Made by a program: the position numbers and the translations under genes. DNA of 27,140 nucleotides from a virus, in IMG/VR virus record IMGVR_UViG_3300035182_001366, positions 1-27,140 of that record. One strand, given 5' to 3'. The notes under the pieces were generated by a model that was given only the letters and a program-made list of their open reading frames with translations, searched no databases and was not told the DNA's origin. Positions 2,575 to 20,749 of the stretch are shown here, one piece after another (the stretch's first letter is position 1; every line of letters starts with the position of its first letter).

Positions 2575-2603
2575 CATATCGAGTTTCAGATTATAACTTC
2601 TTA

Positions 2604-2674
2604 CAGGCCACCCCCGAATCGAACGAGGACCATGTGGTTCAAAGCCACAGGCACTACCATTATGCAAGTAGCCC
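2604..2674 (-). tRNA. tRNA-Gln(UUG)
   Basis: The acceptor GGGCTAC pairs with GTGGCCT. The anticodon loop is CTTTGAA on TGTGG/CCACA, and the T-arm is CCTCG/CGGGG with loop TTCGATT. The discriminator is G. Confidence 0.92.
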
Positions 2675-2676
2675 AC

Positions 2677-3087: not shown

Positions 3088-3097
3088 ATTAGGCAGA

Positions 3098-3262: not shown

Positions 3263-3531
3263 TAGTGAAAAGTCTCTAGCGGGCGGATTATAGACGACTC
3301 CCGATGAATATTCATCTTGACTCCACAGCAGCTAATGCGCATGACACTTGGACTAAAGAAAAGGATGGCTGCTTTTGAAGCAATGTCTTGCTTTATCGTA
3401 CAGTCGAAATCTGCGTCCTCAAGTGTAATGTCGAATTCATCCGGCAAGAAATACAGCGGATTCTTTTCGAGGATGCTCAGTAGCTCGTCTTCTACTGCTT
3501 CGACAATCGACAATGGCTTTTCTTTAAGCAT
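3262..3531 (-). CDS. Hypothetical protein, 89 residues
   Basis: It begins MLKEKPLSIVEAVEDELLSIL, followed by an acidic segment (DEFDITLEDADFD) and a C-terminal half with a CC pair (SCCGVKMN). It is the first gene of a three-gene operon lying between tRNA-Thr and tRNA-Gln and is coupled to the next gene by TAATG. A possible promoter lies immediately upstream, leaving almost no leader. The family is not recognised. Confidence 0.65.
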   Translation of the reverse strand: MLKEKPLSIVEAVEDELLSILEKNPLYFLPDEFDITLEDADFDCTIKQDIASKAAILFFSPSVMRISCCGVKMNIHRESSIIRPLETFH

Positions 3532-3543
3532 GAATTATATATT

Positions 3544-3573
3544 ACAATAGAATGCGGGTTTTGAATACGACAA
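3544..3573 (-). promoter_or_regulatory. Possible promoter for the three-gene operon
   Basis: Minus strand TTGTCG and TATTGT with an 18-base spacer, the same spacing as two promoters in the array. The boxes match consensus at four of six positions each, and the ATG follows about 12 bases after the -10. Confidence 0.35.
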
Positions 3574-3578
3574 ATTTA

Positions 3579-3664
3579 AGCTCCCTGTGGGATTCGAACC
3601 CACGATGGGGTATTAACCCTCTTGTTTACAAAACAAGTCTATTCGACCACTGTAGGAAAGGAGC
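3579..3664 (-). tRNA. tRNA-Thr(UGU) with long variable arm
   Basis: The acceptor GCTCCTT pairs with AGGGAGC. The anticodon loop is TTTGTAA on CTTGT/ACAAG and the T-arm GTGGG/CCCAC. The variable region is 17 bases with its own stem (GGGT/ACCC), a class II architecture normal for Ser, Leu and Tyr but not for Thr. The anticodon reads ACA; which synthetase charges it is uncertain. Confidence 0.85.
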
Positions 3665-3671
3665 ACTAATA

Positions 3672-3743
3672 TGCACCCTGAGGGATTCGAACCCCCAACC
3701 TTCGCGGTGTAGGCGCGTCGCTCTACCATTGAGCTAAGGGTGC
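3672..3743 (-). tRNA. tRNA-Val(UAC), with C at position 33
   Basis: The acceptor GCACCCT pairs with AGGGTGC and the D-stem is GCTC/GAGC. Counting from the D-arm gives anticodon stem ACGCG/CGCGA and loop CCTACAC. Position 33 is then C and the anticodon TAC. Shifting the loop one base would give ACA with a poorer stem. Confidence 0.75.
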
Positions 3744-4024
3744 ATGTCGGATTCTCTCTTCCGTGTCACGGTGTGTGCTGTATTGGCTGTACCGTTCTGC
3801 CTATTACTCCCCAGCACTGGGGAAGCCATCACCTTGGGGAAAGGCGGGCTCACGAGTCTATGAAACCTCCCCACTCGGAACTTTTTGAACTTGTATGTTC
3901 GTCGGTGCCAGCCGACGAATATGTGACGCTTCTGACTCACCTTGCGGACATTTTTGCTGAGACAATTGATACCAGTACCGTATACGGGTTTTGCTCCCGT
4001 CTGTCAAGGGAGAGAGCCTTGAGA
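3744..4024. other. Hairpin-rich stretch without a convincing gene
   Basis: About 280 bases with several strong inverted repeats: TTCGTCGG/CCGACGAA around six bases (3898-3919), CCCCAG/CTGGGG around CA, ACGGG/CCCGT with a seven-base loop, and TCAAGG/CCTTGA. The ORFs here run into tRNA genes. It may be degenerate tRNAs or structured RNAs. Confidence 0.4.
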
Positions 4025-4103
4025 CCTCACTAGAAGTCGAATACGGCATAACCGGGGATACCGATATACCAGACCGGTGTTTTTCCAACTGAACTAAGAG
4101 AGC
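4025..4103 (-). pseudogene. tRNA-Thr(GGU)-like gene with broken T-arm
   Basis: A good D-arm (TAGTTCAGTTGG) and anticodon arm (CCGGT, loop CTGGTAT, ATCGG; anticodon GGT) are present. The T-arm region is disrupted: TTCGACT appears about ten bases late with no paired stem, and no partner for the acceptor strand GCTCTCT is found. It is probably a decayed tRNA. Confidence 0.5.
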
Positions 4104-4108
4104 CCTAG

Positions 4109-4179
4109 AGGCCTGTATGGGAATCGAACCCATCTCGCCGGGTTTGCAATCCGGTGCCCTCCCAAAAGGCTAACAGGTC
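4109..4179 (-). tRNA. tRNA-Cys(GCA)
   Basis: The anticodon loop is TTGCAAA on CCGGA/CCCGG (one mismatch). The T-arm is ATGGG/CCCAT and the acceptor GACCTGT/ACAGGCC has one A-C mismatch. The discriminator is U, as usual for Cys. Confidence 0.88.
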
Positions 4180-4182
4180 TAG

Positions 4183-4253
4183 TCAGGTATGAAAGATTCG
4201 AACTTTCAATACCGGCTTCCGACGCCGGTAGGTTGCCATTACCGCAATACCTG
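4183..4253 (-). tRNA. tRNA-Pro(CGG)
   Basis: The acceptor CAGGTAT pairs perfectly with ATACCTG. The anticodon loop is GTCGGAA on CCGGC/GCCGG, and the T-arm is GAAAG/CTTTC. Confidence 0.92.
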
Positions 4254-4321
4254 AAAATTAAACTTCGTGTTCTTCAACAAATAAACGCACGAAGTTGACG
4301 GAACAAAATCTTCCGTCTGTG
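4254..4321. repeat. Two adjacent hairpins in a tRNA spacer
   Basis: ACTTCGTG/CACGAAGT encloses 17 bases, and GACGGAA/TTCCGTC is a perfect 7-bp stem with a seven-base loop. No T-run follows on either strand. Possible RNA processing or stability elements. Confidence 0.4.
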
Positions 4322-4393
4322 TATAAGGTGAGAATTTCGAAATCTCGACCTCTTGCGTCCAAGGCAAGCGCTCTTCCTCTGAGCTAACCCTAT
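4322..4393 (-). tRNA. tRNA-Pro(UGG)
   Basis: The acceptor ATAGGGT pairs with ACCTTAT and the D-stem is GCTC/GAGC. The anticodon loop is CTTGGAC on CTTGC/GCAAG, and the T-loop is TTCGAAA with one T-T mismatch in the stem. Confidence 0.9.
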
Positions 4394-4406
4394 ATGTTTA
4401 CTACAG

Positions 4407-4480
4407 TACCCGCTGTGGGATTTGAACCTACAGCCTCTCGGATATAAGCCGAGTGCTCCAACCAATTGAGCTAAGCGGGC
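4407..4480 (-). tRNA. tRNA-Ile(UAU)
   Basis: The acceptor GCCCGCT pairs with AGCGGGT. The anticodon loop is CTTATAT on CTCGG/CCGAG, and the T-loop is TTCAAAT. A UAU anticodon reads AUA directly, whereas most bacteria use a lysidine-modified CAU tRNA. The trailer CTGTAGTA follows. Confidence 0.9.
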
Positions 4481-4489
4481 AAATTACTG

Positions 4490-4560
4490 TGCGGGTAGCG
4501 GGGGTCGAACCCGCGCTGTCAGGGTGGAAGCCTGATGCCTTACCTCTTGGCTATACACGC
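4490..4560 (-). tRNA. tRNA-Gly(UCC)
   Basis: The anticodon loop is CTTCCAC on TCAGG/CCTGA and the T-arm GCGGG/CCCGC. The acceptor GCGTGTA/TACCCGC has one mismatch. Confidence 0.9.
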
Positions 4561-4575
4561 AACTTCATACTACAG

Positions 4576-4649
4576 TACCCCGTGTGGGAATTGAACCCAC
4601 TTCTCTGGCTTGAAAGGCCGGCATTCTAGACCATGTAAACTAACGGGGC
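4576..4649 (-). tRNA. tRNA-Glu(UUC)
   Basis: The acceptor GCCCCGT pairs with ACGGGGT. The anticodon loop is CTTTCAA on CCGGC/GCCAG (one mismatch), and the T-loop is TTCAATT. The trailer CTGTAGTA follows. Confidence 0.9.
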
Positions 4650-4663
4650 ATTACTTGCTACTG

Positions 4664-4733
4664 TGCGGTGCACGTGGGTCGAACCCGCGCCCTGAATTGG
4701 AGACCCAGAATGCTACCATAACACCTACACCTC
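4664..4733 (-). tRNA. tRNA, probably Gly(UCC), diverged from tRNA-Trp
   Basis: The D-arm (GTGTTATGGTAGCAT) matches that of tRNA-Trp. Anticodon stem CTGGG/TTCAG, with two G-T pairs, encloses TCTCCAA. Counting gives anticodon TCC with C at position 33; a one-base shift would read CCA (Trp) but breaks the stem. The acceptor GAGGTGT/GCACCGC has one mismatch. Confidence 0.7.
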
Positions 4734-4741
4734 ATACTTCA

Positions 4742-4813
4742 CAGGGGATGAAGGATTCGAACCTTCACGAACAGGTTCAGAGCCTGTCATACTAACCGTT
4801 ATATGAACCCCCT
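4742..4813 (-). tRNA. tRNA-Gln(CUG)
   Basis: The acceptor AGGGGGT pairs with ATCCCCT. The anticodon loop is CTCTGAA on ACAGG/CCTGT, and the T-arm is GAAGG/CCTTC. The discriminator is G, as in tRNA-Gln(UUG). Confidence 0.92.
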
Positions 4814-4892
4814 AAATACTACCGGTTTTACCCGGTAGGACACTCAACCATTTGTGTGGTCGCCACTTGTGTCAAGCGGCTTTCGCGGTGGT
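4814..4892 (-). pseudogene. tRNA 5'-half remnant
   Basis: The minus strand carries a D-arm-like ACAC/GTGT stem with a GG-containing loop, then a 7-bp hairpin CTACCGG/CCGGTAG where the anticodon arm would be. There is no T-arm or 3' acceptor before tRNA-Gln begins. A second hairpin GCCGCTTG/CAAGTGGC lies upstream. Confidence 0.35.
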
Positions 4893-4965
4893 AGGCCTCT
4901 TTGGGATTCGAACCCAAAACCTTCACGTTCGTAGCGTGCTGCTCTATCCATTGAGCTAAGAGGCC
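4893..4965 (-). tRNA. tRNA-Arg(ACG)
   Basis: The acceptor GGCCTCT pairs with AGAGGCC and the D-stem is GCTC/GAGC. The anticodon loop is CTACGAA. A34 would need deamination to inosine by the host TadA to read CGN widely. The T-arm is TTGGG/CCCAA. Confidence 0.92.
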
Positions 4966-4988
4966 ATTTACTTTACTGCTTACTACAG

Positions 4989-5061
4989 TGGACTCGTAGA
5001 GAATCGAACCCTACACAGATGGCCTGCAAAGCCTTCTCGCCCCCTTGGAACATGCGAGCCC
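4989..5061 (-). tRNA. tRNA-Ala(UGC)
   Basis: The acceptor GGGCTCG pairs with CGAGTCC. The anticodon loop is TTTGCAG on AAGGC/GCCAT (one mismatch), and the T-arm is TAGGG/CTCTA. The D-arm is irregular. The trailer CTGTAGTA follows. Confidence 0.85.
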
Positions 5062-5078
5062 ATTTACTATTTACTACA

Positions 5079-5151
5079 ACGATGTGGCCGGATTCGAACC
5101 GGCTGCTAGTGCTTTATGAGGGCACTGTCTATCCTAACAGACTCCACATCG
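5079..5151 (-). tRNA. tRNA-Met(CAU) or tRNA-Ile2
   Basis: The acceptor CGATGTG/CACATCG is perfect and the D-stem is GTCT/AGAC. The anticodon loop CTCATAA has a CAT anticodon, and the T-arm is GCCGG/CCGGC. A paired C1-G72 argues against an initiator. A lysidine-type Ile tRNA cannot be excluded, though an Ile(UAU) gene is already present. Confidence 0.88.
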
Positions 5152-5241
5152 AAAATACATAGTCAGAAACTTGATTTTCACCAATATGTCCATGCCTGCC
5201 GGCTTCTCAAAGAGGTGTGAGCATTTAAACTATTATGACCA

Positions 5242-5315
5242 AGCTCCCGATGGGATTCGAACCCACATCGTCCATTACGGTTTAACTGTTTAGAAGGCAG
5301 TGCCGGTACAGGAGC
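5242..5315 (-). tRNA. tRNA-Arg(UCU) without a D-arm
   Basis: The acceptor GCTCCTG/CGGGAGC, anticodon arm ACTGC-CTTCTAA-ACAGT and T-arm GTGGG/CCCAT are clear. Only CCGGC lies where the D-arm should be, while the variable region is 18 bases. Its acceptor and T-arm resemble those of the Thr(UGU) tRNA at 3579. It could be a functional D-armless tRNA or a decayed copy. Confidence 0.7.
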
Positions 5316-5322
5316 AACTACT

Positions 5323-5392
5323 AGGTCTCGGTGGGAGTCGAACCCACACAAAGTGGTTTAGGAAACCTCTCACAGAATCCGTCTGCGAGACC
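5323..5392 (-). tRNA. tRNA-Arg(CCU)
   Basis: The acceptor GGTCTCG/CGAGACC and T-arm GTGGG/CCCAC are perfect. The anticodon loop is TTCCTAA on GAGGT/ACCAC (one mismatch). The D region is only 14 bases with a tight ACGG/CTGT hairpin. Confidence 0.85.
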
Positions 5393-5438
5393 AGATACTA
5401 GGTCTTACCCAAGGAGTTACCTTGGTGCCTTACTACAG

Positions 5439-5509
5439 TGGGTCGCCGGGGTACTGACCCCCGTTCTCCAACTTAAAAGGAAGGTGCATCACCTTAATGC
5501 TTGCAACCC
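5439..5509 (-). tRNA. tRNA-Lys(UUU) with atypical T-loop
   Basis: The acceptor GGGTTGC/GCGACCC and D-stem GCAT/ATGC are good. The anticodon loop is CTTTTAA on a stem with two T-T mismatches. The T-stem CGGGG/CCCCG is perfect, but its loop is GTCAGTA instead of TTCGAAT. The trailer CTGTAGTA follows. It may be impaired. Confidence 0.75.
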
Positions 5510-5541
5510 GTAGTCTACCGATTAAAACCTCTGCCCTGAGT

Positions 5542-5570
5542 CTTATAACAATGTTTTGTTTCTATTGCAA
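5542..5570 (-). promoter_or_regulatory. Promoter for the Lys(UUU) tRNA module
   Basis: Minus strand TTGCAA and TATAAG with a 17-base spacer, and TGT before the -10 as in the promoter at 2411-2440. It directly follows the terminator at 5575-5607. Confidence 0.75.
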
Positions 5571-5574
5571 CGAA

Positions 5575-5607
5575 GAAAAAACGTCGTGCCAGTGAGACTT
5601 GCGACGT
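5575..5607 (-). terminator. Rho-independent terminator after tRNA-Lys(CUU)
   Basis: Minus strand hairpin ACGTCG/CGACGT, with an inner AGT/ACT pairing, followed directly by six T. It would end transcripts coming from tRNA-Thr(CGU) and tRNA-Lys(CUU). Confidence 0.75.
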
Positions 5608-5618
5608 AAACGAATTAG

Positions 5619-5690
5619 TGGGTCGTCTCGGAATCGAACCGAGTTCTACTGGTTAAGAGCCAGTTGCTTCGCCATCTAAGCTTACAACCC
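5619..5690 (-). tRNA. tRNA-Lys(CUU)
   Basis: The acceptor GGGTTGT pairs with ACGACCC. The anticodon loop is CTCTTAA on ACTGG/CCAGT, and the T-arm is CTCGG/CCGAG. Confidence 0.93.
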
Positions 5691-5769
5691 AAGCGCGGGT
5701 ACTCTGCCAACTGAGCTACACCCCAAAAGCTCAGCTTTTGAGTGAAGCCGGACTCGAATTATCGGCTTC
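5691..5769 (-). pseudogene. Two tRNA fragments next to tRNA-Lys(CUU)
   Basis: At about 5694-5727 the minus strand reads GGGGTGTAGCTCAGTTGG and continues as a D-arm, a perfect tRNA 5' half that then runs into tRNA-Lys. At 5744-5769 a 7-bp stem GAAGCCG/CGGCTTC closes directly on a TTCGAGT-type loop, as if an acceptor stem had been fused to a T-loop. Both look like deletion products. Confidence 0.55.
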
Positions 5770-5775
5770 CCGCAT

Positions 5776-5847
5776 AGCTGCCTGTGGGATTCGAACCCAC
5801 GTGGTACTGTTTACGAAACAGTGGCCTATCCTCTCGGCCAAAGCAGC
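5776..5847 (-). tRNA. tRNA-Thr(CGU)
   Basis: The acceptor GCTGCTT pairs with AGGCAGC. The anticodon loop is TTCGTAA on ACTGT/ACAGT, and the T-arm is GTGGG/CCCAC. The variable loop has the normal five bases. Confidence 0.92.
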
Positions 5848-5889
5848 AATTTGTCGTATTCTCGATTTCAAACCACTTCGATGCGGCGT

Positions 5890-5919
5890 ATTGTACATCT
5901 ACTTTGTTCTACTTGTCAA
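5890..5919 (-). promoter_or_regulatory. Promoter for tRNA-Thr(CGU) and tRNA-Lys(CUU)
   Basis: Minus strand TTGACA and TACAAT separated by 18 bases. It lies between the terminator at 5937-5980 and tRNA-Thr(CGU). Confidence 0.75.
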
Positions 5920-5936
5920 GCTCTTCTTTTCTACCT

Positions 5937-5980
5937 TTTAAAACTCGAAACCCCCGGTACCGTTAGGTGCCGAGGGTTCG
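5937..5980 (-). terminator. Terminator after the 6078 tRNA
   Basis: A long hairpin, CGAACCCTCGG-ACC with GGT-CCGGGGGTTTCG around TAAC, followed on the minus strand by AGTTTT. The T-run is short. Confidence 0.65.
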
Positions 5981-6077
5981 TACAGACACAATCGCACACC
6001 TTTTTATTCAAAAGAACGAATACCGCAAGGCTGGGCGACTTTTGTCTCAAACATAAAGAGCAGATTATTGCTCTTAA

Positions 6078-6150
6078 CTCGCCGCCTCGGAATCGAACCG
6101 AGAATCAGCCCCCTCACTGGGCTTCGCTTTACCAGTTAGCGTAGCAGCGG
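6078..6150 (-). tRNA. tRNA of undetermined specificity
   Basis: The D-stem CGCT/AGCG with a GG-containing loop, T-arm CTCGG/CCGAG and acceptor CCGCTGC/GCGGCGA (C1-A72 mismatch) are clear. Anticodon stem AGCCC/GGGCT encloses AGTGAGG: counting gives UGA (Ser), but position 33 is G and the variable loop is short, so decoding is doubtful. Confidence 0.65.
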
Positions 6151-6687: not shown

Positions 6688-8070
6688 TTAGTAGCTGCCG
6701 ACAAGGTTATCGAGAATTACGTTGTGGCGAGGCTTAATCACTGCTAGGGTAGCGAACCTGAAGTGAGCCTCAGGCATGCTGAGGTCAGTTACGGCCAGCT
6801 TCATGCGCGAGTAAGGAGCCAATTCCATTACTTCCATCGAGTCCTTCTGGATTAGGAAACCAGTTACAAAGCCAGGCTTCTTGTTTCCAAGGTCAATAAA
6901 GGCCGTAGTGGCAGCACCCGAGTTAGAAACGCGACCGATGAACTTCGCAGTAGCCGCAGGAGCACCAGCGTTGTTACGGTACACGTTGAAATACTTAGGC
7001 GAGCCCGAAGGAGTGATTGTTACGGTGATTTGGTCACCGGCAGCAGCAGTCACAGAGCCGACAGCCGAAACAGGCGACTCACCGAGTTCGTTGACCGAGC
7101 TAGCGTAGTAGCTGTAAGTACCCGCAGTGATAGCCGAGCTACTACCCAAGTTGCCTACCGAAATCGAAGGAGCAGCTGGACCGGTCGCACGAGGAGCAGC
7201 AGGACCAGTCTTTCCAGACAGGAAGCGGCTAGCCTCAATCGAGACGGTACCACCCGAAACCCACTGGCGCTTCAAATCGGCCGCAGTCGCGTCCTGAGCC
7301 GAGCCAGCAAGAACGATACGCTCCTTACCGAACGAAATCTTATTGTAAGCGCTCAAAACCTTAGGGTCAACGAGCAGTTGCTCGGCCTCGCCGTGCTGCA
7401 TGGTGCTGCGCACGTGGGCATCTTCAATCGCGTCCTGAGTCAGCACGCCACCGACCGAAACGAGCACCGAGTCAGTGCCGCCGAACTCGTTAAACATAAG
7501 GTCCTGGCTGTTTCGCTCGGAATCCGACATACGAACCTGTGAATCTAGGCCAAGGATGTTCGGGAGCGCAGGAATAATACCCATGTTGCCGTCGAACACA
7601 CCAGCGTTAGAGAAGTCAGACTTGCCACGGAAGAGGTCGAACTCGAAGTCTGCCGCTAGCTTCTTAGCAGCATCGCTCGCGCTACGCTCTTCGGCCTTGA
7701 CACCGTCAACGGTCTGTACCATATTCGCGACAACCGTTACACGGCGGGTGTGGCTGTAGTAAGCCATCGGAACCACGATACGTACGAACTGGCTGTCTTC
7801 CTCTTGACCAATTGCGCCTTCAATTTGGGCCGAAGCGCCGAAAATACCGAACGAAAGCTGACGGTCAAACTGAGCCAGAGTTGACTTGCAAGAAGTGGTC
7901 TTGAGACCCTTCTGCAACTTAATCGCCTTCTCCTCGAAAGTAATGACGTGCATCACGTTCGAGAGGTCCTCAATCTGAAGTGCGCCACCCTGCACGAGCG
8001 TAGAGGGAGCCGCATTATAGTTGCCCGCTTCCAACGCCTTGAGCAGTGCCTGTGTTACTTCGCTTGCCAT
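6688..8070 (-). CDS. Major capsid protein
   Basis: A 460-residue protein forming the head shell. Support comes from position (last gene of the head operon, after a scaffold-like gene, before a strong terminator), a strong Shine-Dalgarno (AAGGAG) and a capsid-like sequence in the style of SPO1-group capsid proteins. Residues 1-40 hold LLKALEAGNYNAAPS and GGALQIEDLS, a segment that recurs inside the protease fusion gene upstream. Residues about 290-400 (AGTYSYYASSVNELGES, PKYFNVYRNNAGAPAATAKF) look like an inserted immunoglobulin or fibronectin-type beta domain, which would project from the capsid surface. The C-terminal part (APYSRMKLAVTDLSMP) returns to the shell fold. The assignment rests on context and pattern, without a database search. 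Confidence 0.85.
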   Translation of the reverse strand: MASEVTQALLKALEAGNYNAAPSTLVQGGALQIEDLSNVMHVITFEEKAIKLQKGLKTTSCKSTLAQFDRQLSFGIFGASAQIEGAIGQEEDSQFVRIVVPMAYYSHTRRVTVVANMVQTVDGVKAEERSASDAAKKLAADFEFDLFRGKSDFSNAGVFDGNMGIIPALPNILGLDSQVRMSDSERNSQDLMFNEFGGTDSVLVSVGGVLTQDAIEDAHVRSTMQHGEAEQLLVDPKVLSAYNKISFGKERIVLAGSAQDATAADLKRQWVSGGTVSIEASRFLSGKTGPAAPRATGPAAPSISVGNLGSSSAITAGTYSYYASSVNELGESPVSAVGSVTAAAGDQITVTITPSGSPKYFNVYRNNAGAPAATAKFIGRVSNSGAATTAFIDLGNKKPGFVTGFLIQKDSMEVMELAPYSRMKLAVTDLSMPEAHFRFATLAVIKPRHNVILDNLVGSY

Positions 8071-10416: not shown

Positions 10417-11543
10417 TTAGAAACTTGGGTAGGCGCAGCAGGCTGCGTAAATTCGGGGTGAGCTTCGATGTAGGATGGGGCTTGCCCCTTAGGGTGGTTC
10501 GCTAGTTGCTTTTTGTGCTTAGCTGAAACTAAAGCTGACTCCGCATTATCTGGAGTCGTACCATACCCAGCACTTGTACTGAGCCGAAATGTTCCTCTAA
10601 TAGCCGGAATGGCTTCAAGCTTTTGTCGGAAGGTACGCAGGAAATGCGCGGCATGTTGACTGCTCGGAACGTGAGCCCTGAATTCATCACCTGAAACCCG
10701 AAAAGCCTTGCCGTTTTTTCGTCCTACGCTTTCGTCCATTGCTTCTCTAAACGCCTTACCAGCAGCGACAATAGCTGAATCACCTACCGTGTAGTTGTAG
10801 GGGTGCTTGTTAAGCTGGCCAAAATCTTGCAGGTCTACGTGAACGTGTACTCCCGGTCGTGGACGCGAAAGAAAGTCGTTGTAGGCCATTTTATTTCCTA
10901 GACTAGGCACCATAGAATCGGTAAATAATTGCCTATTAAGTGTGCGTACTGCTTCTGGGGCAACATGCCCCTGCTGAACGGCCCTACGGATATGACCGAG
11001 AGCTTCAGCGAGTGTTGGTTCAATCTTCTGCAAATTAGACCCTTCGATGTGGTGGCGGATCTTTGCCTTGCCTTGCTGGGCGTTCTGCATGAGGCGGCTT
11101 AGTTCGTCTTGGGAAAGCGCCAGCCCGTCCAAAGTGGCGGTTTGCCCCTTGATTTCCAGTAGCTGAGGGGCTGGAGAACCGTCGCGAAAATAATCAAAAA
11201 CACTTGTTGGGCCACCATCAGAACTCAATTGCCTATCCATTGCATCTTTGAGTTCTGATGAAATACGTCTACCCTCTTGTGTAGAGGGTAGGAGTTCTGG
11301 ATAGTGACCTTGCTTAAGGTCTTCAGCTGAAACAACCATTGTTCGCTGAGAACTTGCTAGGGCTTGAATCTTAGCAGAAATTTCCGCTGGCGACAAGGTG
11401 TCAAGAGGAACCCTTGCCATTCCGTGGTCCTCAAGAATTAAAAAAGTTCCATCCTTCAGCAGAAACTTACCCAAAAGCTTGTGGTGCAGGTCTCCCGACT
11501 CGTGAGGGCGAATGTCAAAAACGTAGTAAAGTGAATTAAACAT
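10413..11543 (-). CDS. GGDEF-domain protein in the head operon
   Basis: A 376-residue protein. The C-terminal half reads as a GGDEF (diguanylate cyclase) fold: TDSMVPSLGNKMAYNDFL, then VDLQDFGQLNKH...YTVGDSAI at about 231-255, which matches the metal and nucleotide-binding motif D-x-x-x-F...GD, and FRVSGDEF at about 281-288 as the active-site loop (SGDEF in place of GGDEF). A signature such as LSTSAGYG completes the fold. The N-terminal half is unassigned, with helical segments. The start overlaps the protease fusion gene by eight bases, so the two are co-translated. GGDEF proteins make cyclic dinucleotides from GTP; whether this variant is active or makes a different product is not known. 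Its place in the head operon suggests a virion or early-injected protein. Confidence 0.7.
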   Translation of the reverse strand: MFNSLYYVFDIRPHESGDLHHKLLGKFLLKDGTFLILEDHGMARVPLDTLSPAEISAKIQALASSQRTMVVSAEDLKQGHYPELLPSTQEGRRISSELKDAMDRQLSSDGGPTSVFDYFRDGSPAPQLLEIKGQTATLDGLALSQDELSRLMQNAQQGKAKIRHHIEGSNLQKIEPTLAEALGHIRRAVQQGHVAPEAVRTLNRQLFTDSMVPSLGNKMAYNDFLSRPRPGVHVHVDLQDFGQLNKHPYNYTVGDSAIVAAGKAFREAMDESVGRKNGKAFRVSGDEFRAHVPSSQHAAHFLRTFRQKLEAIPAIRGTFRLSTSAGYGTTPDNAESALVSAKHKKQLANHPKGQAPSYIEAHPEFTQPAAPTQVSN

Positions 11544-14500
11544 CTACAAAGCCCTCTTGTGAAAAGTTTCTTTTGTGGAGTAAATCGACAAGGCGGGCAT
11601 TGGGCTGCTGTGCAAGCTCTTTGATTTTCTTGATTTTCGTTGCCATTTGTGGGCCTCGGTGGTCTTCCAAACGTGCCATTTGCGAATTAAGTTCGTTTGG
11701 GTCAAGGTTCTGTAGCCACTGTTTGGTTTCTGGCGTAAGAGGTGTGTCTCTCCTGCCAATCGCGTACGTAGGAGGGTACATATCAACAATTCCGGCTGGA
11801 CTTCCCATGAGCCCGTGGTCAATTAACACTAGATTGTTAGTACCATCCTTTTCGTTTGGATGCAAGAGATAATTGCGTTCATGGCGGTCGGCGTTGCCCA
11901 TTACGTAATTCATAATAGAGGCCTTTTCGATTTGGTGCTGAGGAATTTTGGCGTGCTCTTCAGTCCAGTTGTCATCGTTTACGTGCTCGCCCGGCAAGTG
12001 CTCAATGATGGCGTGCTCTTGACGGGTTTGTGGGTGGCGTACAACTGCCACAGTAGGCACGTGGGCACCCATTCCCCAGAAGTTTCTGGCCAATGAATAA
12101 TAAATACCTTCATTGCGCACCTCGTCACGGCCCTTATTCGCTTGACCTTTGACATATACGTGCTTGCCGTTGTCTAGCTTTGACCAATAATTGTGGACGC
12201 CTCTCGAACCATCTTCAGCCATGTTAGGTCCACGCTTACCGAATGTGAAATTTCGAATAAGCTCTTGTGACTCGGGAGAAGTATTAAATTGACCGACGTG
12301 GTGTTCAGATGTAGGCTTTAGGCTCTTTCCGAGAATTTTTGGTGGCGTAGCGACGGCATTACGAAAATTTTCCGTGTCGTTGCTGTTATTGCGGTGTCCC
12401 GTGTAGTCCACGCGCAGGTCCTCAGGACTATAGTTGTGCTCCTTTCCGAACGGCACCGTGTGTACTCGGTCTTGGTCGTCAATGTGCAGAATCGAGCGGC
12501 CACCATTAGTGCGACCCGGAATTACCTTGTTTCCGAGGTAAGGTACGGCGTATTTTTCTTCTGGGTCGTCTGACTTTGTGAGGTCTTCCACCACGAAGTT
12601 CAAGCCGGCCAAAAGCTCAACCGACAAGGCTTCTGCTTTGTGAATTTCAGCCTGTTGACGCTTGGCGTCATTCGCGATGAGGCGCGGGGCAAGATAGCGC
12701 CAAAACAAATCCAAGGCGTGCACGTGTCCGTGCTTTTCAACCCAGCGGTGGTGCTGCATAGCTGTTGAAGAGTGCAGGTCGGGCTCGTAAGCTTCCGACT
12801 TAAGCATTGGGTTGACGGCATCCCAGAATGGAGTATGGTCTGTGCCTTCGTTGTAGGCTGAGTTTGAGGGGATGCCGATACGACGCTCATGGCCAGCAAT
12901 TGAATTCCAGTGCTTCCAGAAAGCTGGGAACAGAGCCTGCTCTTCCCGACCCTTAAAGTAAGGACCAAGTTCGGGGTCATTGAGTACAGATTTCACAGAA
13001 GCGTGATTTTTAAAATAGTGCTTATCAATGCCTTCTAGAATATCGTGACTCGCGGTCGAGCTCAAGAGGGTCTTTTTTAGGTGGTCGATTGCTTCCGTGT
13101 CTGGGGAAGAGCCAGATTGCCCTCCCGGGGCATCAGGGCGAGCGCCGAAATAGTGGCGAATAAAGTGTGTGTCTGGTACAATAACATTTCCGCCACCCAT
13201 CATTCCTAGCAGGTAACGAGCCAGCTTTGGGGCTACGCCTCTCACCTCGGTTAGTTTGCGGGCAGCCAGTTGGGCGTTTCCTTTGCTATTGCGGATTGTG
13301 TCAACGACTTGGTCGTGGTGGTTTTTGAGATACTCTCCTAGGTACTCGATAACCTTGCTGGGCTTCGAATACCCGATGTAGGAGCCACTCTTCGACCTAA
13401 CGGCAGAACGAGCATTTAGATTTTGCTCCATCGCCTCGAAGTGTGCTCGCGAGTGATTTGGCATTCCGCTCCTGTTGCGCGAAAGCCAGTCTTTGATAGT
13501 CGCGTCCCACTTGTCTCTGCTTGGTGACTGTAAGCCTTGGTTGTGTAGGGCGTCCACAAAATGGCCATACATTGATTCCTGCATTGGAACTTTAATCCCG
13601 GGGCTCATTAACGCAAAAGCGACAGCGTGACTAACGAGCCCTTCTGGAACTTCGCCTGAAGTGAATGCTTGGTTAGCTTTCATCCAAGATTGCATCGCCC
13701 TCATGTGGTGGGGGCGACCTTCTGCCATTTCTTTCTGGAATTCTCCGGCGATATCTTTCCCGGCCACATGAGCGGCAAGATTTGGGTGTGGGGAGTCTGG
13801 CGTCGAGGCTTGGAACAGGCCACCTTTTGTGGTAAGAACTCCTGTGTCTGGATTAAATGAAGGACCCTTTACATTAAAGGAAGCGGTTGGGACTGGCTTT
13901 CCCTGAATTGTAAGGCTAGAGCTAGCCTCAGGTGCAGGCTGTGGCTTCTTGGGGGTCTTTCCGGCCTTACGTAGGTCCATTAGGGCCTCTTCCGTCTTTT
14001 TCATTTTCAAGTGATGGGACTCAACTAGGTCGGTGAAATGGTCAATAAACTCATCGCTTACATCTGGCATACGCGCCTTAAGGAAGTCTTTAAACGGCGT
14101 TACTCTGTCCCAGTCGCGCAGAGCAGCCTTTGCGCTTGCACGCAAATTTCTGTCTTCGACTTGTAGAGCGGCGCCATTATTGATTGTGCCGGGCGCAGCG
14201 TTGTAGTTGCCGGCAACCATCGCCTTCATGGTAGATAATCCGTACTCCATTTCGTGACCGCCAAGACGCTGGAAAACACTCGGAAACTCAGTTTTATCGA
14301 CCATTCCGACGAGGTCTACCTTGCTCGCGTCTTTAACGAATCCCTTGGGAGCATTCGGGTCATCAAGGACACCCAGTAGAGCGGTTTTATTGCAGGGCTT
14401 TACTGTGATGGCCACGCGGCGACATACCGTACTAGAAAGAATGTTATCTACTCTCTTGAGGGTAGAGCCTTCGATAGACCATCCAATTGCAACGGGTTCA

Positions 14501-14880
14501 TTGTTAGCATGCGAATCCCTAATGATGGCCGCGATTGCCCTGGAACCTTCGTGTCCAGCACCGTCATAAAGCCGAGCAACCCCGTAAATATACGGTAGCT
14601 TTACCTCATACCAATACTCGCGCTGTCTATCGTTTTCGCAGTCGGACTCCTTGAAGATTTTCTTGGCAAAAAGAATTTTGCCGACAATTTCAGCGCCCGG
14701 AATTTCAGCTTCATCGTGACCGCGATGCTCCCAATTTACATGGGCCGTGCCGTCTAGGAAAGACGAAATGTCGGCGCCGGTAACGCTGAATACCTCACCC
14801 GAAGAATCAATAGCCTCAGAGGCCATGATTCCATCAATAATCATGCCAGTCGGGTTTTCTGGTACTTGATACTTTGCCAT
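11536..14880 (-). CDS. Capsid maturation protease fusion (protease, HhH-GPD-like, kinase-like)
   Basis: A 1114-residue multidomain protein. Residues 1-200 fit a prohead protease: EAIDSSGEVFSVTGADISS, the conserved VNWEHRG (His) and PVAIGWSIEGS (Ser). Residues about 213-243 (MKAMVAGNYNAAPG, AALQVED) repeat the capsid protein's N-terminal segment. A Pro/Ala-rich linker follows. At about 540-578, EVRGVAPKLARYLLGMMG then VIVPDTHFIRHYFG fits the helix-hairpin-helix and catalytic Asp of HhH-GPD DNA glycosylases. At about 905-1021, HVYVKGQ, GNADRHERNYLL and LVLIDHG fit the ATP-Lys, catalytic loop and metal Asp of PI3/4-kinase- or HipA-like kinases. I use the ATG at 14878-14880; an upstream in-frame start at 14931 would add an unlikely leader. 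The proteolysis role follows family knowledge; packaging of the other domains is inference. Confidence 0.75.
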   Translation of the reverse strand: MAKYQVPENPTGMIIDGIMASEAIDSSGEVFSVTGADISSFLDGTAHVNWEHRGHDEAEIPGAEIVGKILFAKKIFKESDCENDRQREYWYEVKLPYIYGVARLYDGAGHEGSRAIAAIIRDSHANNEPVAIGWSIEGSTLKRVDNILSSTVCRRVAITVKPCNKTALLGVLDDPNAPKGFVKDASKVDLVGMVDKTEFPSVFQRLGGHEMEYGLSTMKAMVAGNYNAAPGTINNGAALQVEDRNLRASAKAALRDWDRVTPFKDFLKARMPDVSDEFIDHFTDLVESHHLKMKKTEEALMDLRKAGKTPKKPQPAPEASSSLTIQGKPVPTASFNVKGPSFNPDTGVLTTKGGLFQASTPDSPHPNLAAHVAGKDIAGEFQKEMAEGRPHHMRAMQSWMKANQAFTSGEVPEGLVSHAVAFALMSPGIKVPMQESMYGHFVDALHNQGLQSPSRDKWDATIKDWLSRNRSGMPNHSRAHFEAMEQNLNARSAVRSKSGSYIGYSKPSKVIEYLGEYLKNHHDQVVDTIRNSKGNAQLAARKLTEVRGVAPKLARYLLGMMGGGNVIVPDTHFIRHYFGARPDAPGGQSGSSPDTEAIDHLKKTLLSSTASHDILEGIDKHYFKNHASVKSVLNDPELGPYFKGREEQALFPAFWKHWNSIAGHERRIGIPSNSAYNEGTDHTPFWDAVNPMLKSEAYEPDLHSSTAMQHHRWVEKHGHVHALDLFWRYLAPRLIANDAKRQQAEIHKAEALSVELLAGLNFVVEDLTKSDDPEEKYAVPYLGNKVIPGRTNGGRSILHIDDQDRVHTVPFGKEHNYSPEDLRVDYTGHRNNSNDTENFRNAVATPPKILGKSLKPTSEHHVGQFNTSPESQELIRNFTFGKRGPNMAEDGSRGVHNYWSKLDNGKHVYVKGQANKGRDEVRNEGIYYSLARNFWGMGAHVPTVAVVRHPQTRQEHAIIEHLPGEHVNDDNWTEEHAKIPQHQIEKASIMNYVMGNADRHERNYLLHPNEKDGTNNLVLIDHGLMGSPAGIVDMYPPTYAIGRRDTPLTPETKQWLQNLDPNELNSQMARLEDHRGPQMATKIKKIKELAQQPNARLVDLLHKRNFSQEGFVDV

Positions 14881-14898
14881 AAGCGATAAGATTACCCC

Positions 14899-14927
14899 TT
14901 GACCTATTAATAGACGGGTAGTACAAC
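14899..14927 (+). promoter_or_regulatory. Possible plus-strand promoter before a tiny ORF
   Basis: TTGACC and TACAAC with a 17-base spacer. Six bases after the -10 comes an ATG, which would give a leaderless message. Confidence 0.3.
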
Positions 14928-14933
14928 TCACTT

Positions 14934-15032
14934 ATGAAAAAGCGACTCGTGGCGATTATTGGTTTTTCACCGGCTCTTATGGTTATTGCTGACCGGATTG
15001 CTCACTTATTCGGGTTCTGCCTCGGCTTTTGA
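14934..15032 (+). CDS. Tiny putative membrane peptide, 32 residues
   Basis: The ORF encodes MKKRLVAIIGFSPALMVIAD followed by RIAHLFGFCLGF: a basic N-terminus and a single hydrophobic segment. It fills the otherwise empty gap between the MuF-like gene and the protease fusion on the opposite strand, and a promoter-like sequence precedes it. It overlaps the last nine codons of the MuF-like gene. No Shine-Dalgarno. Its existence is uncertain. Confidence 0.3.
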   Translation: MKKRLVAIIGFSPALMVIADRIAHLFGFCLGF

Positions 15033-15788
15033 TTCTGCGTAAGCGTCGTAGCCCGGCTTAATGTACTTAACTTTTCCAGATGAGTCAAAACCGTAACCCG
15101 GCAACAACACAGTTAAAAAACACCGGCAGTGAGGATGCAGCCCGCCGATTTTGGGTGTTTTATCGCCACGCTTATGGTAACTCGCACCGATTTCGCTACG
15201 CTTCCATAGGCGTGGAGTAACTTTATCCGGCATTAAGTGAAGCTCAGTGCACTCTTCGCAACGGTTACCGTCTCTAACAACAACAAAAAACATTGTTGGG
15301 TCAGACTGCCCTGACATGGCTGCAATTCTTGTTGCTGCGTCAAAAAGACCCGTATTTCTAACACGAGTCGATTCGCTTTCGACAATCTTTTTAATGTCTG
15401 CCTTTGCATCTTTCCAGACTTCGGTGAGTCTGCCCTGAAGTACAGTGCGAGGGTCTGTTTTAATACCTTTTTCATTAGCCTCTTCAATGAAACCGTGTAC
15501 TTCTGCCACGACACGCGCTTTTGTGTGCTCTCGGCGGGAGTCAATGTATTTAGCCGCAACTCTCAGTAGAGTGTGCAGAACTTCTTCCCGTGGAGAAGCG
15601 CCTTCTGCTCGCGAGGCCTCTGCAAAAAGACCAACTAAAGAAAGCTCTTCTGGAAACCCAAAAACGAGTTTCTTGCCCCAGCTACGATAGGCGCCGGGAC
15701 CTAGAAACCTTTCTTTCGCTGAATCATACAGCTTGTCTACAGCTTCTTCAATTGTCTGTACGGCCTTTTTTGACAAATGAGTTTTCAT
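15006..15788 (-). CDS. MuF-like minor head protein
   Basis: A 260-residue protein placed immediately after the portal gene and coupled to it by TAATG, the usual position for SPP1 gp7/Mu gpF-type head morphogenesis proteins. The C-terminal third holds the family signature: DGNRCEECTELH, then GGLHPHCRCFLTVL, with Cys and His residues that probably bind zinc. The N-terminal two thirds are helical (TIEEAVDKLYDSAKERF). These proteins sit inside or on the procapsid near the portal. The tail is acidic (YAESKAEAEPE). Confidence 0.8.
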   Translation of the reverse strand: MKTHLSKKAVQTIEEAVDKLYDSAKERFLGPGAYRSWGKKLVFGFPEELSLVGLFAEASRAEGASPREEVLHTLLRVAAKYIDSRREHTKARVVAEVHGFIEEANEKGIKTDPRTVLQGRLTEVWKDAKADIKKIVESESTRVRNTGLFDAATRIAAMSGQSDPTMFFVVVRDGNRCEECTELHLMPDKVTPRLWKRSEIGASYHKRGDKTPKIGGLHPHCRCFLTVLLPGYGFDSSGKVKYIKPGYDAYAESKAEAEPE

Positions 15789-17827
15789 TAGGTGTGGCTA
15801 ATCGCAACGTCCAGAATCTGATCAATCGCGGTGTCGCTCTCCTTTTCAAACGACTCTAGTAAGGCCGAAACTACCTTTCGCTGACTCGCGAGCAGGTGTT
15901 TTGCGTTGCTGGGGAGTTGCTGCTCAGACTTCGTCAGCAGGCCTCCTAGCTGGTCGATAGAGCTAGTCAAGTCGCCCTGTGCCTGTTGCTGCTGGACTTG
16001 CTGTTGCTGGACTTGCTGTTGCTGGACTTGCTGTTGCTGGAGTTGCTGGGTCTGTTGCTGTTGGCTAAGGATGATTTGCTGCCAACTGAAGAAGTTTGGA
16101 TTATTAATGAATTTCAAGCTAGGGTCTTGAGCAGCACCCTTCATGTCAAAGAAATACTCCATAATTTCGCCTTGGTAGAAGTATTTATCAAGAACTTGCT
16201 GCCACTGCGGATTAAGCAGGAAGTGGCCTCCCCACTTCTTTCCAAGAGGAGTCTTGTCCACGGTCTCAAGGACCTCGTCGATTGACATGTGAATCGCCAT
16301 GTCTTCCTGTAGGCGAACTGACTCTTTTTCCGCTGTATCCGAGTCCAAACCAACAAACTTTAAGTAGCAATTTTTCGCGAGTTCAGGAGCTACCAAGGGT
16401 AGAATGCGCGAGTTAAGAAAATCCTGAAGCTGGGCGATTAAAGGTCTAATGCCAACGTCTCTGTGAGCTTCGAGCTTATATTCGTTGTTGGATTCTGATA
16501 GGGCTTGGTTGTTCGTTCCTCTTGAAAGGTGTGCGTAACCGGGAATTTCCTCTGGCGATACCTGAAAGGCCGAAAGAATTTGTCGTGCGTTGCTATCGGA
16601 CAAATACTGGAACTCCATGTCGCGACCGCCAGCCGAATCAATGGCAGTCCAAACGATTTCTTCGTCGGTACCGACTGAAAACAGCGGCATGCGCCATGAA
16701 TTTCCGACCGAGTTGATTGAGGCATTAAACTGCTGCTGTACTGTAGCTACAACGGATTCGTCAACATCGTCGGACTTAATGACTAGCATTCCGCGAGCCG
16801 CTCTACCCGACTGGAAGTAAAGCTTGTTGTGAGTACCAATATTAATGTGAGTTGTGATTGCGGTAATTACCGTATCCATTGGGGTAACTGGATACCCATC
16901 AAGCTCTACGTCCGTGCACGGGAAAAAGTTGTGTACAACGCATTCCTCTGAACTAAAGGCCTGTACAGGTCGGCCGTCAATTACCTGTACCCACGAATAC
17001 TCATCGGCAACGTAGCGTTCTGGGGCAAGCCTCTTTCGGTCACCCTTAAGCTCCTGAAGCATACTTAGCGCATTATCGCGCACAGACTGAGCCTGTGTCT
17101 TAAACGGAGCCGCCTTGTAGATTGTGCCAGCGTCAATGGGTCGAAAACTATGGAACCTGCGACCCTTGCTTGTTTCGACGTAAATAACTTCTGTGGCGAT
17201 ACGGCCAAAAACGATTGCGTTGCGCGCCTGAATGTGCAAAAATTGAGACAAGGAAGCCGCGTCGTCGTCCGACCAGCCCTTAGTCTCCCCGCAAGTCAAA
17301 AGATTAGCTTCAGCCTTTGCGATGGACTCTTGAACTCTTTTCCGGTCTTCATCAGACAAACGCTCCATGTAACCGGGAATGGCTTCGATTTTGTATCCAG
17401 TAGAAAAACGGTCTGGCTGAGGGCGACCAAAGGCCTTGACCTGATGGCTGCGCAAGTTTGTGATTGCCGCAACAAGGTCGTCCTGAATACTAATTCTTTT
17501 CAGAATTTCGTCTGGCAAAAGACGTAGCTTACGCTTCCACAGTCCGCCGTACGTATTACTGGTCCAAGGCTGATTTTCAAACGCCAGACGCTCGATTGAA
17601 TCGCCTGGACCATTAAGTACGTTGAGTACAGACTTAATTAAAGGACTTTCTCCCTTAACTCGCTCGGTGTGTTCCGCAACATCATCCTTAGTGAGCTTGG
17701 CAGAATAGACCGCACCGGCCGCAAACGGGTCAGCCATCCTGAAGTCGATTTTCTTTCTTTTCTTTGGCGCTTCATCGCCCATCAAGGCCTTGGCCATAGA
17801 TTCAGCAAACTGGTTCTTCTTAGCCAT
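15788..17827 (-). CDS. Portal protein
   Basis: A 679-residue protein expected to form the dodecameric ring through which DNA enters and leaves the head. Support comes from its place between terminase and MuF-like genes, a length above the family norm, and portal-like segments: DDLVAAITNLRSHQVKAFGR, NAIVFGRIATEVIY, IGTHNKLYFQSGRAARGMLV, FQVSPEEIPGYAHLSRGTNN and HRDVGIRPLIAQLQDFLN. Residues about 590-625 are almost pure glutamine with valine (QQQQVQQQQVQ), encoded by a 15-base tandem repeat, then a short helical C-terminus. The basic N-terminus (PKKRKKIDFR) is notable. A gap of two bases separates it from the upstream gene. Confidence 0.87.
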   Translation of the reverse strand: MAKKNQFAESMAKALMGDEAPKKRKKIDFRMADPFAAGAVYSAKLTKDDVAEHTERVKGESPLIKSVLNVLNGPGDSIERLAFENQPWTSNTYGGLWKRKLRLLPDEILKRISIQDDLVAAITNLRSHQVKAFGRPQPDRFSTGYKIEAIPGYMERLSDEDRKRVQESIAKAEANLLTCGETKGWSDDDAASLSQFLHIQARNAIVFGRIATEVIYVETSKGRRFHSFRPIDAGTIYKAAPFKTQAQSVRDNALSMLQELKGDRKRLAPERYVADEYSWVQVIDGRPVQAFSSEECVVHNFFPCTDVELDGYPVTPMDTVITAITTHINIGTHNKLYFQSGRAARGMLVIKSDDVDESVVATVQQQFNASINSVGNSWRMPLFSVGTDEEIVWTAIDSAGGRDMEFQYLSDSNARQILSAFQVSPEEIPGYAHLSRGTNNQALSESNNEYKLEAHRDVGIRPLIAQLQDFLNSRILPLVAPELAKNCYLKFVGLDSDTAEKESVRLQEDMAIHMSIDEVLETVDKTPLGKKWGGHFLLNPQWQQVLDKYFYQGEIMEYFFDMKGAAQDPSLKFINNPNFFSWQQIILSQQQQTQQLQQQQVQQQQVQQQQVQQQQAQGDLTSSIDQLGGLLTKSEQQLPSNAKHLLASQRKVVSALLESFEKESDTAIDQILDVAISHT
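15983..16072 (-). repeat. 15-bp tandem repeat inside the portal gene
   Basis: Three tandem copies of ctgttgctggacttg (plus-strand reading; the last has one change) flanked by partial copies. They encode the QQQVQ units of the portal C-terminus. Copy number is likely to vary between relatives. Confidence 0.85.
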
Positions 17828-18826: not shown

Positions 18827-20749
18827 TTACCCGTTAAACAGGAATCTACCTTTTTTAATTGTTTGGGTTGGTTGGGCTGTTGAGTCTCGGGAAGGTGCGT
18901 CAATTTGCCCTGTAAGAGACTTTATCATATTCGTAAGCTGTAGGGCGTGTATATTAGATGGAGCCAGAGGAGCATTCGGGATTGTATCGTTTTGGTAGGT
19001 AGCGTTATCTACGAGTACGCCGTTTTTACCCATTCCGTTCATAATTCCGTAACGCATTGCGTCACATTCATCGTCGTCTTTATCGTTTGGCTCTTCAGTG
19101 ACTTGCCCTGCTGCGTCGGTAACAAAGGCGTAACGAGACATTCTATCAAACAAAAGCTTGACACCTTCGTCATCCTTAAGGAAAAACAATCTAGTGCGAC
19201 CACGACTATCCCAGATTAGGGTACGCACCATTTCGATGCCGGCCTTCACCGACCCGGGCCCCTTTTCCCACTCCCGCATTTTGTATCCATTTTTTCTGAA
19301 AGAAATAATGTCTGAAGGGTAGGCTGGGTCACCAAACACAACGGGATTCCCGTACGTAGTCTTAATGTACTGGCACGCTTCGATTTTTTGGTCTAAGTCA
19401 AGATTCGACTGAGCGAAAACGTCTAGCACGTACACGAAGGCTCCGTACGAGGCAAAAGTAACACTTACAAAGTTGTGGCTAAAACCAAAGTCCATTCCCG
19501 TAAAGAACTTGGCCCCACGACGACGTAGTTCTTGGATTACTTTTTGTTTGTCAGCCATTGGGTCACGAGTACCAGTGACCATTTCAATGATATCGGCAGC
19601 TTCCTTGTAATGTACTTCAGGGTCTAGACGAGGGTAAATAAGTCCTGTAGAATCCGGCTTGCGACACAGAAATTCCGTTTGAATGTATTCGGGGCCGGGC
19701 GCACCTTTGAATTTGTCAATTGTGTCAGCCACAGGCTTCAACATTAAGCTTTTGGAAGTCTGATGTGTAGCCAACCTTCCCTTGCAAGCAGCAAACAAGG
19801 GGCACTTTGCGCAACCTTCGTAGCCCTCGGCGGAAACGTACTTTGCTTGTACTGCTGGATTAAGTGTTTGGTACTCGGCTTCAGTAATGTGCTTGAGTGT
19901 GTTGTCGTTTATCCAGTACGTCTGCTTCGGCCTGTCGGGTAGATGCCTTTCCTGCTCGCAAGCGGAAGTAAGGTCGATAAGATTCCAGTGACGAGCGACC
20001 AATCCTGTATTAACAGCTTCGTCTAGTTCCTTTTGGACTAGACCTGTACGGAACTTTCTGGTAGAGGTGAGTAACGTAATCGGGCGGAAACCAGAACTTG
20101 TATCTGGAATCGACTTGGACTGAAAGTATGCTGGAACGTGCTGTTTAGGCACAACGTCTACTTCGTCCACGACAAATAGGCCGTTAACGTGGAGGCCGTT
20201 TGCGCCTGCCATTGTACATAAAACAATCGTGAGTTTATTCTGCTTGCGAATCCACGCTGGCCTCTTGTCTACCGCGACCTTAGTAAATTCCTTGGAAGTA
20301 ATAATGTCACCTGTCACTTTGTGAACGTACTTTACAATAACGAAATCGGTCGCGTTATCATTGTCAACGTAGTCGCGAAGGTGTGGAAGCTGAAAAAATC
20401 CCTTTACGTAACCGGCCGAAATCTTTGACTGGCGCTCGATGGCCGCCATGTGACCTACACTTCGGTCAGTGTGCAGAAGTAGAAGGGTCTCTAGAATCGC
20501 CGCAGAGAGTGTCTTAAAACCGCCTCTACTGGCATACGACATGACTCGGGTAAACCCCTCTACGTCGTTACGTAGAATACAATCGTAAGGCTCCCAGAGA
20601 GCGTCAAACGGATTCGAGTTAGACTCTTCAAGTACCGTGCAGTCAGGTAGCTCAATATTCAAAAAGTGCTTAACCCACAGCTTAAGGTGCTCTTTCGTCT
20701 TGCACGGCGTAAAAATAGCCTTACGCTGTTCTGAGATTGATGCGCTCAT
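18827..20749 (-). CDS. terL: Terminase large subunit
   Basis: The DNA-packaging motor, an ATPase plus nuclease that cuts concatemeric DNA and pumps it into the head through the portal. Visible motifs: a Walker A variant SYASRGGFKT (71-80), Walker B LFVVDEVD (191-198), coupling motif TST (228-230), and RNase H-like nuclease acidic residues in TGMDFGFSHN (D419), VFGDPAYPSD (D473) and DDDECDAMRY (D562). An insertion between the domains holds C313, C316 and C322 (CAKCPLFAAC), with C264 before it, which suggests a bound metal. Its start overlaps the stop of the transglutaminase-like gene by four bases. At 640 residues it is somewhat longer than most terminases. Confidence 0.93.
   Translation of the reverse strand: MSASISEQRKAIFTPCKTKEHLKLWVKHFLNIELPDCTVLEESNSNPFDALWEPYDCILRNDVEGFTRVMSYASRGGFKTLSAAILETLLLLHTDRSVGHMAAIERQSKISAGYVKGFFQLPHLRDYVDNDNATDFVIVKYVHKVTGDIITSKEFTKVAVDKRPAWIRKQNKLTIVLCTMAGANGLHVNGLFVVDEVDVVPKQHVPAYFQSKSIPDTSSGFRPITLLTSTRKFRTGLVQKELDEAVNTGLVARHWNLIDLTSACEQERHLPDRPKQTYWINDNTLKHITEAEYQTLNPAVQAKYVSAEGYEGCAKCPLFAACKGRLATHQTSKSLMLKPVADTIDKFKGAPGPEYIQTEFLCRKPDSTGLIYPRLDPEVHYKEAADIIEMVTGTRDPMADKQKVIQELRRRGAKFFTGMDFGFSHNFVSVTFASYGAFVYVLDVFAQSNLDLDQKIEACQYIKTTYGNPVVFGDPAYPSDIISFRKNGYKMREWEKGPGSVKAGIEMVRTLIWDSRGRTRLFFLKDDEGVKLLFDRMSRYAFVTDAAGQVTEEPNDKDDDECDAMRYGIMNGMGKNGVLVDNATYQNDTIPNAPLAPSNIHALQLTNMIKSLTGQIDAPSRDSTAQPTQTIKKGRFLFNG

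Follow-up and report, generated by a model that had tools for sequence, protein, structure and literature searches.

A phage prohead protease predicted to cut itself from glycosylase-like and kinase modules at a copy of the capsid maturation site

Analysis of an IMG/VR virus fragment of 27,140 bases (hereafter the window) revealed a single open reading frame (ORF) in which four parts follow one another, namely an S78-type protease, a site resembling the N-terminus of the major capsid protein (MCP), a helical module that contains an HhH-GPD core, and a PI4K/PI3K-type kinase. We consider it probable that this fusion is the prohead maturation protease of a phage related to Myxococcus phage Mx1, enlarged into a self-cutting carrier of enzymes that are packaged in the head and ejected from it. 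The domains, their catalytic residues, a site restricted to MCP and protease, and the exchange of cargo among relatives all emerge from sequence comparison and structure prediction, as detailed below.

The fusion ORF lies on the minus strand and encodes 1131 residues when counted from its GTG codon; a plus-strand reading of the region was ruled out by 36 stops. The ATG at 14880 is the likelier start, as it is preceded by AAGGGG, and homologues of the protein start near residues 19-30. A sequence-only reading of this DNA, which left the strand unstated, had ended its protein at this very ATG, and every motif that it quoted is present in the ORF, each exceeding chance.

Table 1. Features of the window. 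Residue numbers of the fusion protein count from the GTG, not from the ATG at 14880.
Feature	Position	Strand	Basis or remark
Whole fusion ORF	11536..14931	-	GTG start; ATG at 14880 is residue 18, likelier start
S78-like prohead serine protease domain, aa 29-190	14362..14847	-	Herelleviral homology
Catalytic candidates H69; S152	14725-14727; 14476-14478	-	Invariant in 16 sequences
MCP maturation-site copy, aa 233-261 (STMK/AMVAGNYNAAPGTINNGAALQVED...)	14149..14235	-	Motif HMM
Predicted self-cleavage after K236	14224-14226	-	Equivalent Lys precedes mature kayvirus MCP chain
Conserved helical segment, aa 262-312 (ALRDWD..FLKARMPDVSDEFIDHF)	13996..14148	-	Conserved in 16 sequences
All-helical cargo module, aa 341-795	12547..13911	-	AF2 pTM 0.75
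HhH-GPD glycosylase-like core, aa 432-610	13102-13638	-	Profile match to EndoIII
K569; D587	13225-13227; 13171-13173	-	Aligned with EndoIII K120, D138
PI3K/PI4K-like kinase cargo, aa 885-1126	11554..12279	-	Pfam PF00454 3.5e-7
Kinase residues K928; D1015; N1020; D1038	12148-12150; 11887-11889; 11872-11874; 11818-11820	-	
GGDEF (diguanylate-cyclase-like) protein, 376 aa	10413..11543	-	Pfam GGDEF 2.4e-4, just below cut-off
Probable scaffold protein, 310 aa	8111..9043	-	Directly upstream of MCP; lies between protease and MCP genes, a placement shared with SPO1-type phages
MCP, 460 aa	6688..8070	-	PHROG 752 major head protein 3.3e-40
MCP maturation-site motif, aa 9-36	7963-8046	-	Motif HMM 7.7e-14
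Portal protein	15788..17827	-	PHROG portal 2.6e-16
Terminase large subunit	18827..20749	-	PHROG terminase 1.1e-16

Profile comparison identifies the N-terminal domain as an S78 prohead protease of the SPO1/herellevirus type. In hhalign, a profile of 16 protease sequences matched one built from six herelleviral prohead proteases at 99% (E 5.5e-18, 165 columns), with H69 and S152 aligned to the herelleviral active-site residues. The same domain contains VNWEHRG and GWSIEG, from which the sequence-only reading had correctly proposed a prohead protease. Since Pfam PF04586 (Peptidase_S78) gave no direct match to the window protein, its placement in this family comes through the profile link; a homologue from Lysinibacillus phage LysYB1 exceeds the Peptidase_S78 cut-off, and tblastn of the relative L016 found Listeria prohead proteases at 1e-4. 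Both this homology to known prohead proteases and the position of the gene, between those for portal and MCP, support the carrier reading.

Following the protease, residues 233-261 (STMKAMVAGNYNAAPGTINNGAALQVED...) match residues 9-36 of the same phage's MCP (tblastn 6.6e-6), so that a copied MCP N-terminal segment of 29 residues lies between protease and cargo. A motif HMM was searched against 3683 ORFs (all loci fetched by then, the whole Mx1 genome and the window) and its only matches were protease proteins and MCPs, in the latter always inside the first 54 residues; no other ORF scored above 4.3 bits or better than E 8.7. In phage G1 and further herelleviruses, too, MCP and protease both have the motif. 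In PDB 9row, a kayvirus capsid that we take to be that of Staphylococcus phage 812, the MCP sequence is identical to that of phage G1, and the deposited chain of 439 residues starts at S25, directly after K24 (VVK/SFQTGYG), the invariant Lys of the motif. In a hand-made set, this Lys is present in all 24 MCPs and in 23 of 24 proteases, the lone exception (L047) being an effect of trimming a site that has an insertion. Because the invariant Lys directly precedes the mature kayvirus MCP chain, we predict the self-cut after K236. Presumably, Cps of Listeria phage A511 is cut at the same Lys, although we do not count it as evidence. Furthermore, protease sites resemble the MCP site of their own genome above those of other genomes (observed sum 853 versus a permuted maximum of 835; 20,000 permutations within family), a resemblance to which shared ancestry contributes in part. 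The sequence-only reading had noted a capsid-like motif and suggested that the protease cleaves off its own C-terminal domains; by these comparisons the motif is a copy of the phage's own MCP maturation site, and self-cleavage of the fusion is strongly implied, a stronger case than that reading could have known. In three relatives (L027, L030 and L033) protease and MCP have a site variant of their own in common, AGYGGxGxPT..GGxxQxES, and in the protease this site is immediately followed by a terminal zinc-ribbon-like tail.

Beyond the site and a conserved helical segment, residues 341-795 are predicted to be mostly helical (mean pLDDT 78) and probably hold a divergent HhH-GPD domain. Pfam and PDB sequence profiles alone gave nothing significant on this module (EndoIII reached just E 1.1), and the assignment therefore draws on profile-profile and fold evidence. 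Against six EndoIII/MutY-type proteins, the module scored 38.4 (P 4.2e-5), whereas none of 60 column shuffles exceeded 18.5 and the reversed profile reached 11.1. K569 falls on EndoIII K120 and D587 on D138, with a spacing of 18 in both; among the 11 long members, the Asp is present in all and the Lys in ten, L023 having Glu. In Foldseek, the sole coherent high-probability set of solved structures was that of 8-oxoguanine DNA glycosylases (probabilities of 0.90 for 3n0u, 0.90 for 3knt and 0.66 for 3fhg), at weak E-values of 0.18-0.5. The HhH-GPD signature proposed from the letters alone is thus borne out, and the label 'DNA-modifying' attached to it holds as a prediction at the level of fold and active site, but not at that of family, as the curated glycosylase models PF00730 and NF002305 had no match in the window. 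Among phage records, tblastn with the L007 module found this module only in Mx1.

The C-terminal module is, by profile and predicted fold, a PI4K/PI3K-type kinase with intact catalytic residues, which sharpens the earlier description of a kinase-like triad. It exceeds the curated cut-off of PF00454 (PI3_PI4_kinase; 30.8 versus 27.1 bits), its profile matched PI4K-beta in the PDB at 1.8e-6, and its predicted fold is nearest to PI4KII-alpha (Foldseek E 2.3e-5, probability 1.00, TM 0.5). Five residues are invariant in the 11 kinase members: K928 (the ATP-site Lys), D1015 and N1020 (the catalytic Asp and Asn), D1038 (the metal Asp) and R1016. HipA was rejected as the best name for this domain, as HipA_C reached just 0.18 and the PI3/PI4 kinase family fits better. 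Retention of the catalytic residues in both the HhH and the kinase cargo is a further point in favor of the carrier reading.

The surrounding genes form a head-gene module resembling that of SPO1-type phages. On the same strand, the terminase large subunit is followed by the portal, a weakly MuF-like protein, the fusion ORF, the GGDEF protein, a probable scaffold and the MCP, and Mx1 has the same order. The MuF-like match (0.087) belongs to the separate gene at 15006-15788, and a Pfam search found no PF04233 (MuF) domain in the fusion protein itself. The GGDEF protein, whose motif reads SGDEF, starts at an ATG that overlaps the stop of the fusion ORF (ATGTTTAA), and its Mx1 homologue matches Pfam GGDEF at 1.3e-9. 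The probable scaffold is rich in Ala, Pro and Asp, with one coiled-coil-like part, and had no informative family match in Pfam or PHROG. Homology of the conserved segment 262-312 to scaffold C-termini or to herelleviral protease C-termini was not detectable, and the idea that it is a domain of either type was dropped. Elsewhere in the window, the MCP has an apparent Ig/fibronectin-like insert at about residues 300-400 (PHROG 19622 match at 301-400). Just downstream of the MCP gene, ARAGORN found a 4.8 kb array of 25 tRNA genes for most amino acids (1381-6150, minus strand), and Mx1 likewise has a large tRNA set. A long, pentapeptide-repeat-like protein of 282 residues with ANLxx repeats is encoded at 165-1013 (minus strand).

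Comparison of 31 IMG/VR loci and Mx1 (L004 being a copy of the window's own sequence) indicated that about thirty relatives keep the protease while the cargo varies, comprising kinase alone, HhH with kinase, HhH with GGDEF cyclase, acetyltransferase, or HEAT repeats. A protease-site-kinase build of about 570 residues is found in L013-L019 and L021, protease-site-HhH-kinase in the window, Mx1, L007 and L009, and protease-site-HhH-GGDEF in L005, L006, L008, L010, L011 and L023. In particular, the GGDEF domain that is fused in these last six has a gene of its own immediately downstream in the four HhH-kinase genomes. A few relatives, such as L027 and L034, have the protease only. In the protease tree, the window falls among the HhH-GGDEF proteins and apart from the other HhH-kinase proteins, as a cargo swap would give, with modest support that does not allow events to be counted; the kinase tree, for its part, is too poorly resolved to date the swap. 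Searches for related loci in viral contigs with the GGDEF alignment and in genome contigs with P0001 returned nothing. This exchange of cargo around a retained protease and site supports the notion that the enzymes are payload. One contig, IMGVR_UViG_3300049472_000168, encodes both a full protease-HhH-GGDEF fusion (L023) and a separate protease-only protein of 154 residues (L034:10001-10465), which has no site, shows active-site residues that look altered (KWEYR, GIGGF), and is perhaps a degenerate copy.

Several observations count against the carrier reading, among them the part that shared ancestry has in the resemblance of protease and MCP sites. In L022, L028, L030, L031 and L033, cargo or filler precedes the site; a cut there would free the C-terminal tail alone, and the preceding material would therefore stay joined to the protease. 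In L031 this material is a GNAT domain, and the inserts of L022, L028 and L030 resemble lytic transglycosylases by eye, with no match in Pfam. The contig of L029, with its HEAT repeats, stops before any site comes into view. Another observation concerns Mx1, in which the motif HMM found no other ORF of at least 50 residues with an MCP-type site. Among the Mx1 ORFs without it are a 1479-residue protein with GNAT, ART-PolyVal and NUDIX domains (L003:24404-28843) and a GNAT-kinase protein whose kinase is paralogous to that of the fusion (L003:28851-30710). Since these and the other Mx1 ORFs searched are without the site, we rejected the idea that it is a general packaging or cargo tag.

Taken together, we propose that the fusion protein would be built into the prohead by a targeting route that we infer, where the activated S78-type protease would cut the MCP after the Lys of its N-terminal site. 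Because the MCP's site is copied between protease and cargo, the protease would also cut itself after K236, and thus part from a fragment of about 890 residues holding the EndoIII/Ogg-like HhH-GPD module and the PI4K-type kinase. This fragment would remain in the head, perhaps together with the co-encoded GGDEF protein, and would enter the host with the DNA, where the enzymes may act on host or phage targets; cleavage itself, retention in the virion, delivery and the nature of the substrates are the parts of the scheme that we infer from this arrangement. Delivery of the enzymes at infection had already been suggested in the sequence-only reading.

An alternative that we regard as unlikely is that the C-terminal modules act in assembly. 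They would then form an outsized propeptide with a targeting or regulatory role, docked in the prohead core, whose HhH part binds DNA and whose kinase phosphorylates head proteins; in mature virions this propeptide would be lost or inert. A C-terminal propeptide has been proposed to target the SPN3US protease gp245 to the core (PMC7411985), in herelleviral proteases the same site is followed by a short C-terminal tail, and segment 262-312 is conserved regardless of cargo. The cargo, however, appears interchangeable and enzymatic with intact active sites, its GGDEF and GNAT versions have no evident role in assembly, and a tail of about 60 residues suffices for SPO1-type phages. A distinctly less probable possibility is that the MCP-like segment is a docking element, mimicking the MCP N-arm for binding to the capsid lattice, in a protein that stays uncut. 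The motif is indeed conserved for about 25 residues past the Lys, more than a short cut site needs, and is retained even where other material precedes it. Yet its conserved Lys falls where the mature MCP chain of the solved capsid starts, and standalone herelleviral proteases also have the site; docking and cutting at this segment are, moreover, mutually compatible. It is very improbable that the enzymes are active in the infected cell at the stage of late expression, preceding assembly or running alongside it, with the fusion merely coupling expression or having no role in delivery: the start/stop overlap suggests translation coupled with structural genes, and the GGDEF domain and a related kinase are separate genes in some relatives, but fusing enzymes to the assembly protease with a maturation site between them would be a costly form of co-expression, and such fusions occur in many divergent contigs.

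Returning to the self-cutting carrier, a broader version of it can be put forward tentatively, as one that may well hold but that we would not yet call probable. It would be a general in-cis system for head loading, in which enzymes placed beside a copied capsid site are packaged, cut free in the head and ejected, and in which the lineage trades a base-excision-like module, a PI4K-like kinase, a c-di-GMP-type cyclase, an acetyltransferase and others via one slot, so that the host is reprogrammed or disarmed as the phage enters. Proteomics is the usual route to head-packaged effectors, since the sequence offers few marks of what a phage loads. Here, the maturation protease would serve as carrier, and the copied cut site of the capsid would be a mark that can be read from the sequence. 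The resulting predictions are an exact cut after K236 and a list of the cargo in about 30 phage contigs. Whether infection begins with the joint injection of glycosylase-like, kinase and cyclase activities also becomes testable, with Mx1 of Myxococcus available as an isolated relative with a complete genome. The arrangement is also a candidate means of loading a chosen protein into phage heads.

Among known systems, the herelleviral (SPO1-type) prohead proteases of Staphylococcus phage G1, Listeria phages LP-124 and P100, and LysYB1 are homologous, occupy a like gene position, and share the MCP-like site with its Lys inside the protease. They differ in their length of 248-270 residues, ending about 60 residues past the site, whereas in the window protein enzyme modules account for about 820 further residues. 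The nearly full-length homologue in Mx1 (WNM70322.1, 'putative prohead protease'; 31% over 88%) has the same four parts and a GGDEF gene nearby, but is annotated as a protease alone, and its GGDEF region is split into two genes. MuF polymorphic toxins, in which a head-assembly domain bears variable C-terminal enzymes, follow the same logic of a carrier with exchangeable enzymes; the window fusion differs in having no MuF domain and in using as carrier the maturation protease, which bears a copied cut site. A precedent for the predicted self-cut is the prohead protease gp245 of SPN3US, which autocatalytically removes its own 64-residue C-terminal propeptide, a segment that may target it to the core (PMC7411985). 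T4 Alt and the IPs are likewise protease-processed, ejected proteins (PMC7411985). The ejection proteins of the SPN3US and T4 gp21 systems are, however, separate polypeptides with their own propeptides, while the window's enzymes are joined to the protease in cis; placing an enzyme on the maturation protease itself would be a new step relative to them. The nearest concept is that of polyvalent proteins, phage multi-domain proteins that mix unrelated enzymes such as peptidases, kinases, GNATs and GGDEF domains and are thought to be injected (PMC5512222), and the window fusion likewise combines several unrelated enzymatic domains in one polypeptide. In the survey of polyvalent proteins, assemblin-like peptidases are always C-terminal (Iyer et al. 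2017; PMC5512222), whereas the window fusion has its peptidase at the N-terminus, with an MCP-type site behind it, and this peptidase is itself the predicted maturation protease.
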